A DNA stretch of 64,000 nucleotides from Alkalihalobacillus sp. AL-G (lineage in GTDB: Bacteria > Bacillota > Bacilli > Bacillales > Fictibacillaceae), in the NCBI RefSeq assembly GCF_030643805.1, contig NZ_CP094656.1:3472001-3536000 (forward strand). The letters are read 5' to 3'. The notes under the pieces are model-generated. The model was given only the letters and a program-made list of their open reading frames with translations. It was not told the origin of the DNA and did not search any database. Position 1 is the stretch's first letter. Each line of letters starts with the position of its first letter. Below, one piece after another: positions 3,714 to 59,006 of this stretch. The translations under genes were made by a program, and so were the position numbers.

Positions 3714-4061
3714 TTAAGTTGTACAGGCTAGTAATTTATTTCCCTCCGGATCGTAAAAATGGCATCCTTGCATCGATTCGCCAAACGGTTCGATTGGGTC
3801 CACCTTGACTCCTTTTTGCTTCAGTTCCTTTTGTGTCTTTTCAACATCGGTCGTTTCAAAAAAATAGACGGAATAAGGAAGTGGCTTAATCTCATCGACC
3901 ATTGCTTTTAAAAGCACAAGCTTCGTTCCTTCCATTTTAAATTCTAAAAAACCATCTCCTTCTGCTTCAACCTCGAAATCAAACACATTTTTGTACCAAT
4001 CTTTCGAGTGCTCGAAGTCTACCAAATGAATGAAGCACATATTGATTTTATTTTTCACCAA
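3714..4061 (-). CDS. VOC (glyoxalase/bleomycin-resistance fold) family protein
   Basis: A 115-residue single-module vicinal-oxygen-chelate fold protein: opening beta strand (INMCFIHLVDFEHSKDWYKNVF), middle EFKMEGTKLVLL, and a C-terminal FYDPEGNKLLACTT that carries the usual metal-ligand Glu position. Substrate unknown. It stands alone on the minus strand, divergent from the sigma factor gene at 4252, with about 180 bases between them that could hold both promoters. The start has only a weak purine stretch upstream. Confidence 0.7.
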   Translation of the reverse strand: MVKNKINMCFIHLVDFEHSKDWYKNVFDFEVEAEGDGFLEFKMEGTKLVLLKAMVDEIKPLPYSVYFFETTDVEKTQKELKQKGVKVDPIEPFGESMQGCHFYDPEGNKLLACTT

Positions 4062-55266: not shown

Positions 55267-56037
55267 TTATTTTGTATTAATGAGTTCTTCTTTTAATTCT
55301 AAGCCACGTTTATCTCTAGGAACTAATTTTAGAAAGGTTTCGATATGCTTTAATGCTTTTTTATACTCTCCTTTAGAACCGTAAATTAGTGCTTTATTAT
55401 AATAAATAGAAGGGATAGGATAATTGCGATTTTCTATGTCATCATAGATATCGATAGCTTCTTCTAGTTGACCTGATTTTTGCAGTTCTGCAGCTTGTGT
55501 GAATTTTGGTATTGCATAAGCATAATATACTTTCTCTTCTAAAAAAGTGATTGAAAAAGTATAAATTATTAATACGAAAGCAAATATGATCGCACATAAC
55601 CAACTGACTCCACCATTCTTACGAATGGCAAGAAGACGTTCTTCACGGTTTGGATATTGATTTTTTAAACTTTGTACTTTCTTTAATACAAAATCAAAGT
55701 AGGTCTTATTAGCGATTAATCCTATAACGATAAACATACCAGCCAACTCAGTTGACAGCGTTGTTCTTTTAAACAATATGATTGATAAGATATCAAGTAC
55801 AACAAAAATGCCTAGAAGAAGATAAACATAAACATTCATTTTCCGATAACCAAACCAAAATAAACCTAAAATTAATGAACTCCAATTCCAAGAGAATATA
55901 GATTTTCGATTTGAAATTTTTCCCCATTTCTTTTCATAGTACTCTTTATTTCTACCGACATATTCTAATACATCTTCACGTGTTTCTTCATCAAGATCTA
56001 AAAAATTCACCTGATGTTTCTCTTTCTTTGAAAACAT
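55267..56037 (-). CDS. DUF2628-like membrane protein with C-terminal TPR
   Basis: 256 residues. Residues 45-130 have SIFSWNWSSLILGLFWFGYRKM, the DUF2628 type, with two to three helices. A further helix (SWLCAIIFAFVLIIYTFSITF) leads to TPR-like repeats (KFTQAAELQKSGQLEEAIDIYDDI, YYNKALIYGSKGEYKKALKHIETFLKL). Probably a membrane scaffold. GGGGGT start. Confidence 0.65.
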   Translation of the reverse strand: MFSKKEKHQVNFLDLDEETREDVLEYVGRNKEYYEKKWGKISNRKSIFSWNWSSLILGLFWFGYRKMNVYVYLLLGIFVVLDILSIILFKRTTLSTELAGMFIVIGLIANKTYFDFVLKKVQSLKNQYPNREERLLAIRKNGGVSWLCAIIFAFVLIIYTFSITFLEEKVYYAYAIPKFTQAAELQKSGQLEEAIDIYDDIENRNYPIPSIYYNKALIYGSKGEYKKALKHIETFLKLVPRDKRGLELKEELINTK

Positions 56038-56078
56038 TCAATTGTACCCCCGTTCGTACAAATAAGATATCTCAAATT

Positions 56079-56513
56079 TTATACTTCAAAGCCATCCTTT
56101 TCCAAGTCAAAACAGTAGTATTTTAAATTACTATCTTTAAGCCAATTTTCTAAAGGTATTACCCAAGGACGAAACTTTAAATATTCTCGTATTTTATTGA
56201 TTGGGATAAATTTAGTTTCAATTACATCTTGGTCTGGATCATCTTGTGTATCCATTTCGGATATAATTTCTCCAATATAATAAATCTGCAAATACTGTCC
56301 ATATTCCTTTGCAGTATATTCTGTTATAAAAGCAACATCTTCAATATTTAATTGATAACCTGTTTCTTCAAGTCCTTCCCTTTTAGCAGTTGTTAATAAG
56401 GTTTCACCATTTTCAGTTGAACCTTTTGGCAAACTCCAACCATTTTTATCTTTAACCAAGAGAACTCTATTGTCTTTAACTACTATAACCCCACTTACTA
56501 AGTGATGAGCCAA
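56079..56513 (-). CDS. NUDIX hydrolase
   Basis: 144 residues. NUDIX box GSTENGETLLTTAKREGLEETGY matches GX5EX7REUXEEXGU. Removes nucleoside diphosphate-linked or oxidised nucleotide substrates in the family; no specificity is visible. GGAGGGGT precedes the ATG. Confidence 0.88.
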   Translation of the reverse strand: MAHHLVSGVIVVKDNRVLLVKDKNGWSLPKGSTENGETLLTTAKREGLEETGYQLNIEDVAFITEYTAKEYGQYLQIYYIGEIISEMDTQDDPDQDVIETKFIPINKIREYLKFRPWVIPLENWLKDSNLKYYCFDLEKDGFEV

Positions 56514-56569
56514 AAATACCCCTCCAACTTTCAGAAATCTTCCTCACCAAAACTGCCTCAATTCTTCAG

Positions 56570-56618
56570 TAAGGCGAAAGGCGATCACCTTATGCAGCAA
56601 TCGCCCCCGTTAGCTTAA
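56570..56618. repeat. Intergenic hairpin repeat, subfamily C
   Basis: GAAAGGCGATCACCTTATGC, AGCAATCGCCCCCGTTAGCT, TAATAAG; closest relative at 27003. 3' of the 56629 gene. Confidence 0.7.
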
Positions 56619-56628
56619 TAAGAACTTT

Positions 56629-56916
56629 TTACATTTTACCTTCTTTTATCCATCTCCAAATACGGTAACTACCGAATACTGACACTAAAAAAAGTAAAAT
56701 CATAAATATAACGTAAATTGATAATCTATTGATTTCTCGTAACCCTTCACCATTAGCCACTACCCACATTGTTAATCCAAATAGCAGTAAGTAACAAAAT
56801 ACATTAGGAATAATCCATACGATTCTTAACTTTGTATTTTTCAAAAATATCCCCCCAAAAGTTAGTACGAATATCAGCAAGAATAGGTTCCAAATAAGTA
56901 ATTCCTTATTAAACAA
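56629..56916 (-). CDS. Small membrane protein, unknown
   Basis: 95 residues with three helices (LLIWNLFLLIFVLTFGGIFL, IVWIIPNVFCYLLLFGLTMWV, LSIYVIFMILLFLVSVFG) and RIWRWIKEGKM at the end. No clear site for ribosomes; the start could differ. No family recognised. Confidence 0.5.
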   Translation of the reverse strand: MFNKELLIWNLFLLIFVLTFGGIFLKNTKLRIVWIIPNVFCYLLLFGLTMWVVANGEGLREINRLSIYVIFMILLFLVSVFGSYRIWRWIKEGKM

Positions 56917-57120: not shown

Positions 57121-57528
57121 ATGAAAAAATGGGAGGCTGCATATTTGGCTGGTATCATTGATGGTGAAGGTAGTATTACTCTAACTCGTATGCACCAAAG
57201 TGAGCACCGTCGTCCTTGTATTACAATTGCATCAACAGATAAAGAACTTCTAGTATATGTTCAAACTTTAACTAATGGTGTCATTAATAATAAAAAGAAC
57301 TATAATCCTATTAAACATAAAAACTCATATACTCTAAATATAAAGAAAAAAGAGGATGTATTTTCAACATTATTATCTACTGCTCCCTATCTGAGAATTC
57401 CCCAAAAAAGAAATCGAGCACATTGGATTCTTGATCATTATAATGAAGTTACTCAGAGAAATGGGAAATATAATAAAGAATTGATGGAAAAGAAGTTATT
57501 ATTTGAGGAGCCTTTTTTCAGGATATAA
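57121..57528 (+). CDS. LAGLIDADG-type homing endonuclease, single motif
   Basis: 135 residues. The LAGLIDADG motif is YLAGIIDGEGSITL (residues 10-23, catalytic acids Asp/Glu); then HRRPCITIASTDKELLVYVQ, and the second half has TAPYLRIPQKRNRAHWILDH. One motif means it should act as a dimer, cutting a near-palindromic site. AGGGAGGGATGGT precedes the ATG. It is convergent with the intron-split tmRNA gene and stops 36 bases from the tmRNA 3' end, so it lies outside the intron and is not part of its RNA. Confidence 0.85.
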   Translation: MKKWEAAYLAGIIDGEGSITLTRMHQSEHRRPCITIASTDKELLVYVQTLTNGVINNKKNYNPIKHKNSYTLNIKKKEDVFSTLLSTAPYLRIPQKRNRAHWILDHYNEVTQRNGKYNKELMEKKLLFEEPFFRI

Positions 57529-57541
57529 TAAAATTTTTCAT

Positions 57542-57569
57542 AAAAAAACCACCATAGTATGTATGGTGG
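57542..57569 (-). terminator. ssrA terminator sharing the tmRNA 3' end
   Basis: CCACCATA (57569-57562) pairs with TATGGTGG (57556-57549), followed by U7. The 5' arm includes the CCA end of tmRNA, so processing must open the hairpin. Confidence 0.85.
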
Positions 57570-58210
57570 AGACGGTGGGACATGCTGTTCCATGCTTTCG
57601 TCATGGCACTGACTATATCTTGAACCTGAATGTTGATCAGGTCCTCCGGCGTATTATGCAAAATGTAAATTTACTTGAATCGATCAAGTAGGATTTCGCA
57701 TCCTAGTACTACCTTGAAGGCAGCCTATGAGTCGATAAATGGCTGTTGGATTGCTCCACATACCACTCGATATTGCCCTATTGCTTCGTTGTAACGAAAC
57801 AACTTAGGTTTCATCGATAAAGCCGGATTATCACTTTTGTGTTGCCACAAAAGGCGACTAATTACTAATCGAACCCACGTCCAAAGATATCGTGACTTAA
57901 GCTTCTACGAGCATAGTCGATATATTAGCATTTCGCCAGCATTTCTGCCTATCGACAGGCTTCCATGTGACTAGCCTGATTGTTCTCTTCCTTCATCCTC
58001 AGGCGGTGGAATCCGGCGTAGCCTACTTCAGTTGAGTCCCTTACCCTAGCACATAGGCGATGCAGGGAGGAACCGCTAAGCTACTGTTACGCAGCTAGTG
58101 CGAAGTTGTTGTTTTCTTTGCCAGTTATAGGCGTTGGCGTTTTAACGAGGCCGACCCCCTCGGCTCGCAACTCAAGCTCGACCTATCCCTGTCGAATCCG
58201 TAACGTCCCC
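57564..58210 (-). ncRNA. ssrA: tmRNA gene interrupted by a group I intron
   Basis: 5' exon 58210-57868 (343 nt) and 3' exon 57580-57564 (17 nt) give a mature tmRNA of about 360 nt. The acceptor ends GGGGACG and CGTCTCCACCA pair. The resume frame reads GGC AAA GAA AAC AAC AAC TTC GCA CTA GCT GCG TAA, tag GKENNNFALAA after a leading Ala (near 58120-58085). The T arm GGACGTGGGTTCGAT is cut and resumes with TCCCACCGTC, so the uninterrupted T loop is restored only after splicing. It rescues stalled ribosomes with SmpB, encoded directly upstream. Confidence 0.93.
57581..57867 (-). other. Group I intron in the tmRNA T-loop (287 nt, no ORF)
   Basis: The 5' splice site follows a U. A P1 helix forms: exon CGAU with intron GUCG, giving the U-G wobble at the splice site, extended by UAG/UUA around a UAA loop. 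The intron ends in G (57581). AAGATATAGTC at 57621-57611 is the conserved P7 segment of group I introns. With no reading frame inside, it depends on self-splicing and on outside help for movement. Confidence 0.88.
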
Positions 58211-58366: not shown

Positions 58367-58395
58367 ATTATAGCATAATCAAGGTGCTTTGTTAA
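58367..58395 (-). promoter_or_regulatory. Promoter of ssrA
   Basis: Minus-strand TTAACA (58395-58390), 17-base spacer, TATAAT (58372-58367). Transcripts would carry about a 150-nt leader before the mature tmRNA. Confidence 0.65.
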
Positions 58396-58410: not shown

Positions 58411-58878
58411 TTACATTTTTTGGCGTTCTCGGAAAGCTTTTTCGATTTCGCGTTTTGCCGTCTTTCGCTTGAGATCTTCACGCTTATCGTATTTCTTCTT
58501 TCCTTTTCCGATTCCGATCAGGACCTTCGCAAATCCGTTCTTGATATAAAGCTTCAACGGGACAAGCGAATAGCCGGACTCTTTCGTTGCGCCGATCAAT
58601 TTGCTGATTTGTTTTTTGTGTAAAAGCAGTTTGCGTGTTCGGAGCGGTTCGTGATTGAACCGGTTTCCTTGTTCGTAATGACTGATATGCATGTTATGGA
58701 GGAAGACTTCACCATTCTGGACACGTGCGAATGAATCCTTCAGCTGGACTCGGCCAGCCCGGATCGCCTTGATTTCGGTTCCTTGTAATACGATTCCGGT
58801 TTCGTACGTTTCTTCGATGATATAGTCGTGTCGTGCTTTTTTGTTTTGTGCAACTAACTTTCCTTCATGACGTGGCAT
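58411..58878 (-). CDS. smpB: SsrA-binding protein SmpB
   Basis: 155 residues, the normal length. [29 protein letters not shown] is the tRNA-like-domain-binding barrel; the basic tail [21 protein letters not shown] reaches into the ribosomal decoding site. Start at 58878 (AAAGGGGAAACG upstream), not at the in-frame codon seven positions earlier. Directly upstream of ssrA and downstream of rnr, the classical order. Confidence 0.95.
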
Positions 58879-59006
58879 AACAATCGTTTCCCCTTTCAAA
58901 CCGCATGATACATTTTAACAACTTTGGTCAAGGAAAGTCAAGAACAGCGCAGGGCTGACCGATTCTTGTGAACGTGTATTGTACACATTTCAGATCAGCC
59001 CATCTC

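Follow-up and report, generated by a model that had tools for sequence, protein, structure and literature searches.

Group I introns that interrupt the T-loop of ssrA, the gene for transfer-messenger RNA (tmRNA), are known biology. The available excerpts of PMC11915505, to which our statements about that study are confined, count 883 unique tmRNA genes that carry group I introns. Introns at the main loop position (7) occur in 21 phyla and mostly in Bacillota, and 36 of the 883 introns (about 4%) contain a homing-endonuclease gene. Collaborative homing by a free-standing endonuclease and a group I intron lacking its own endonuclease has been described in cyanophage S-PM2, where F-CphI is paired with the psbA intron, and also in T3/T7-like phages (PMC6083498, PMC3984707, PMC10448857, likewise in excerpt). 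The descriptions we found come from phages only, and the origin of the arrangement there is considered unclear (PMC10448857). Here we report that the sole ssrA gene found in Alkalihalobacillus sp. AL-G carries a T-loop intron and adjoins a free-standing LAGLIDADG endonuclease gene. Both lie within a stretch of 64,000 nucleotides (nt; contig NZ_CP094656.1, positions 3,472,001 to 3,536,000), hereafter the window.

Like the tmRNA introns in PMC11915505, the window intron interrupts the same gene behind the sixth nucleotide of the loop, which by our own count is their position 7, with U at -1 and a terminal G, and its length is near the 293-nt average of that study's founding set. Unlike the endonuclease genes reported there, which are intron-internal, the one found here lies outside the intron, antisense to ssrA and beyond the 3' exon (Table 1); the excerpts make no mention of genes placed in this way. 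The locus resembles the phage cases in that a free-standing endonuclease gene adjoins an endonuclease-less group I intron and, here only as a proposal, in that the insertion site is the target. It differs from them in lying on a bacterial chromosome, in a tmRNA gene, and in that the enzyme is a LAGLIDADG protein, whereas theirs is Endo VII-like. A literature search, with most subscription journals outside its scope, found no description, in the text available to it, of a tmRNA intron with a free-standing endonuclease gene next to it. An initial annotation of the window had recognized the split tmRNA gene, ascribing such introns to "a few bacteria", which understates their reported spread. It did not include the neighbouring endonuclease gene, which is the more interesting part of the locus.

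The group I intron in ssrA is supported by a covariance match, by covariation and by reconstitution of the tmRNA. The Rfam tmRNA model (RF00023) matched at 159.5 bits (E 5.4e-63; gathering score 47), with the 5' exon match stopping within the T-loop and the remaining T-arm half and acceptor end resuming 287 nt beyond. ARAGORN reported no tmRNA in the whole window or in the unspliced gene. When the exons were joined, which restores TTCGATT, it called a 360-nt tmRNA whose tag is GKENNNFALAA. The group I model (RF00028) aligned over its full length at 57877-57590 with 40.8 bits (E 4.1e-9), far beyond chance and under the gathering score of 50, so that the intron goes unreported at that threshold. 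Its folding is unusually stable (z = -6.5; none of 200 shuffles equally stable). We collected 122 loci with both intron boundaries, comprising 104 distinct sequences, with some loci sharing one genome and with several clostridial introns absent whose 3' boundary our script missed. From these, 43 sequences of less than 88% identity were aligned, excluding two longer than 320 nt. Of the 80 pairs that RNAalifold predicted (the P7 pseudoknot lies outside the model), 41 showed one or more compensatory changes; these pairs and the full-length model match support a group I core fold (P3-P9). All 43 conserve the U-G pair that marks the 5' splice site in P1, which the initial annotation had pointed out, and the terminal intron base was G at 122/122 loci. 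The coordinates given in the initial annotation proved exact, and the intron is predicted to self-splice.

A second intact ssrA, which the initial annotation had named as potential counter-evidence, was not found: the single-contig assembly (4,155,898 bases) holds one ssrA above the cut-off, and neither of two patterns searched detected an uninterrupted T-arm in it. Because no second ssrA was found, trans-translation in this organism would depend on splicing. To this extent the dependence proposed earlier is a sound inference; it concerns trans-translation, and may or may not extend to ribosome rescue in general.

The neighbouring gene encodes 135 amino acids whose match to Pfam PF14528 scores 34.8 bits, above the curated cut-off (22.5), and the residues of the LAGLIDADG motif showed no variation in 74/74 sequences; a search of NCBIfam returned no family for it. 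Structure prediction gave a LAGLIDADG fold matching I-CreI, with 15-23% structural sequence identity to enzymes of the I-MsoI / I-CreI type (VIA-align). These belong to the same single-motif LAGLIDADG type and are encoded inside ribosomal RNA introns, unlike the window gene. The predicted fold fits a role in homing, is no proof of cleavage and left our estimates unchanged. The product is probably a DNA-cutting homing enzyme. The gene is under purifying selection, with a median ratio of nonsynonymous to synonymous substitution rates of 0.265 over 33 pairs (range 0.07-0.55, distant pairs being near saturation).

We then asked how often the two elements occur together. In an even draw of 397 genomes from the window's order (Bacilli), a covariance model built on the intron with its exon flanks matched 98, of which 90 scored above 200 bits; the eight weak matches (30 to 64 bits) were excluded from the tmRNA-intron counts. 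An endonuclease profile built from seven sequences matched 54 genomes, 37 of them at 100 bits or more. The intron was present in all 37 of the latter versus 53 of the 360 others (Fisher 1.4e-27, uncorrected for relatedness), and in 48 of the 54 genomes with an endonuclease match of any score. Seen from the intron, 48/90 genomes had an endonuclease match and 42/90 had none. The two genes of these 48 pairs were on the same contig in 45 and split between contigs in three. In every pair less than 1 kb apart (38/38) the endonuclease gene was antisense to and downstream of ssrA, an orientation retained in six of the seven farther same-contig pairs (G173 being the exception).

The association recurs in a second sample, 194 genomes of a clostridial order. 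Homologs of at least 100 bits occurred in 28, of which 23 had the intron (in one, G605, with a 73-bit match adjoining a run of N), versus 22 with and 144 without it among the rest (Fisher 5e-13). The antisense-downstream arrangement was shared by all same-contig pairs, 16/16 close and 6/6 farther, with one further pair on different contigs. A free-standing endonuclease gene adjoining a group I intron without an endonuclease of its own, the anatomy of a collaborative pair, is found in the window and in the close pairs of both orders. Finally, among the best 80 of 173 loci from a scan of the whole collection, a biased sample ranked by similarity to the window query, an intron-bearing ssrA was present within the 3-kb flank in 71 and elsewhere in the genome in eight; the single case with an intronless ssrA was Clostridium folliculivorans. 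That intron and endonuclease gene usually occur together in the sampled relatives suggests a two-part mobile element.

The window's family shows repeated changes of state. Out of 34 genomes we set aside G033, in which no tmRNA reached the cut-off and whose endonuclease match is broken by a contig end. The remaining 33 comprised 7 with the pair, 11 with the intron alone, 15 with neither and none with the endonuclease gene alone; in G001 the endonuclease copy is disrupted by a frame change. Nine changes among the three states (pair, intron alone, neither) were needed on a tree built from the flank on the smpB side. Two intron-bearing genomes, G012 and G018, differ by the clean presence or absence of an endonuclease cassette of ~540 base pairs. 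Moreover, endonuclease and intron distances were correlated after allowing for SmpB, with partial r of 0.53 (60 loci) and 0.45 (57 loci of Bacilli), values not reached in any of 2000 permutations in either set.

Our combined findings are, we think, probably explained by collaborative homing of the free-standing endonuclease and the endonuclease-less intron. The intron would splice itself out before the RNA acts as tmRNA, and the single-motif LAGLIDADG enzyme, encoded 35 nt downstream, would be its mobility partner. In ssrA alleles that lack the intron, the enzyme would cut the uninterrupted T-arm; repair off the intron-bearing donor would copy the intron, and the neighbouring endonuclease gene would follow by co-conversion, the two thus moving as a unit. 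By disrupting the target in its own genome, the intron would shield that genome from the enzyme. After fixation of the allele, the endonuclease gene may decay or be deleted, and the intron may remain alone. The rarity of genomes with the endonuclease but without the intron suggests that the target site spans the insertion point. On a wider scale, and with slightly more reserve, we favour the view that a chromosomal collaborative-homing element parasitises the tmRNA T-loop of cellular bacteria across Bacilli and Clostridia, in empty, pair and intron-only states, leaving trans-translation in many species dependent on a selfish ribozyme.

The base preceding the insertion site was T at 122/122 intron loci, where it forms the U-G pair. 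In a set of 338 genomes, exact patterns, which miss variants, detected uninterrupted T-arms with C at this position in 191 genomes and with T in 53. None of these 53 T-allele genomes was among the 90 intron-bearing ones, and by eye the table of C alleles likewise contained none. The T could have been brought by co-conversion with the intron, or could be required for splicing. We also considered palindromy of the T-arm DNA as a target for a homodimer. In three intronless alleles 6 of 11 half-site positions matched; this idea was dropped because the shuffled maximum averaged higher (7.6).

Several observations weigh against collaborative homing, and they bear on three other explanations. The intron could be real and by now immobile, with the endonuclease gene a passenger of other target in the ssrA 3' flank, an island hot spot. 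Islands do seem to land there: by eye, Tn7-type TniQ/TnsC-like open reading frames (ORFs) lie 3' of the endonuclease gene at L129, L154 and L165, three of eight translated loci, and because of such island-like ORFs, islands may also have separated some of the pairs. The 42 intron-bearing Bacilli-order genomes without any endonuclease match point the same way. However, a passenger aimed elsewhere should also occur beside intronless ssrA, the majority state, yet all 37 strong Bacilli homologs are in intron-bearing genomes, and the same antisense placement downstream of ssrA is seen in both orders; we therefore consider this explanation unlikely. Those same 42 genomes disfavour a second possibility, that the LAGLIDADG protein is a trans-acting maturase assisting in splicing of the intron and not a nuclease, which we regard as distinctly improbable. 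As a further unfavourable point, endonuclease remnants were found in only one of 46 intron-bearing genomes without the gene (G151, 19.1 bits), versus 0/30 intronless genomes and 0/230 shuffles in the control searches. Apparent residual C-terminal codons seen by eye in G026 and G028 were too short to count as remnants. With remnants in only 1/46, visible decay is not the general route of endonuclease loss.

The remaining unfavourable points concern endonuclease genes in genomes without the intron. Five clostridial genomes have a homolog and no intron: G595 (apparently intact), and G507, G519, G495 and G546 (partial). In G595 the apparently intact gene is accompanied by an intronless T allele, and an open endonuclease gene lies near an intronless ssrA also at L190. 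Partial genes adjoin an intronless ssrA with C at -1 at L319 (G375; 3752-3993), L356 (G507), L358 (G519) and L362 (G448), perhaps reflecting intron loss or allele replacement. The open genes, together with the partial ones in G375, G507 and G519, speak for an enzyme that cuts ssrA or its flank at another site and homes alone (intronless homing), with the intron hitch-hiking by co-conversion and providing no protection. Such homing predicts that genomes with the gene and an intronless ssrA are common, whereas in the Bacilli order they made up 0/37 at 100 bits or more and 6/54 at any score, and we give this explanation very little credence.

If collaborative homing applies, the locus bears on how endonuclease-less group I introns spread and on how free-standing endonucleases team with introns, questions discussed for phages. 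If the partner is often next door, as suggested by the endonuclease match that 48 of the 90 sampled genomes with the intron possess, this may account for part of the apparent lack of endonucleases in tmRNA introns. With many intermediate states among Bacillales species, the homing cycle would be open to direct testing in an RNA gene of the core housekeeping set. As to a vehicle for transfer, none was found among plasmids, phages and viral contigs: a plasmid search returned no relatives, the phage relatives (10 records) were all below 60% identity with the best-ranked at 39%, and of 182 relatives on viral contigs the 80 kept had 26% to 49% identity at mostly partial coverage.

Table 1 Features of the ssrA locus in the window.
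Feature	Coordinates	Strand	Remarks
Free-standing LAGLIDADG homing-endonuclease gene	57121..57528	plus	135 amino acids; LAGIIDGEG motif; outside intron, antisense to ssrA, 35 nt past ssrA 3' end
ssrA, whole gene	58210-57564	minus	downstream of smpB
ssrA 5' exon	57868..58210 (343 nt)	minus	tRNA-like 5' end, tag frame GKENNNFALAA, pseudoknots, T-arm 5' half ending TTCGAT
Group I intron	57581..57867 (287 nt)	minus	insertion between TTCGAT and T within T-loop
ssrA 3' exon TCCCACCGTCTCCACCA	57564..57580 (17 nt)	minus	
Terminator-like hairpin of ssrA, then T-run	57549..57569	minus	overlaps encoded CCACCA end; consensus scan only
Promoter-like site 5' of ssrA, TTAACA-17-TATAAT	58367..58395	minus	consensus scan only
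smpB, tmRNA partner protein gene	58411..58899	minus	Pfam SmpB 1.5e-62

Some further loci deserve mention. A diverged, open endonuclease subfamily with 36-38% identity is present at L316, L317 and L318, in three genomes with intronless ssrA (G146, G290, G349). Two of the three have a LAGMIDG-like motif, and the copy at L317 is antisense to and downstream of ssrA. The intron at L332 (G005; 805-1234) is 430 nt long and is matched twice by the 5' portion of the intron profile, as if partly duplicated. Weaker matches to the intron model at G185:C44:58526-58769 (64 bits) and G170:C1:977869-978131 (56 bits) are possibly other group I introns, an uninterrupted ssrA T-arm being present elsewhere in both genomes. 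Beyond the endonuclease gene in the window, positions 55267-56916 hold, on the minus strand, a NUDIX gene, a TPR/DUF2628 gene and an ORF that matched nothing in Pfam, and are perhaps a variable region.
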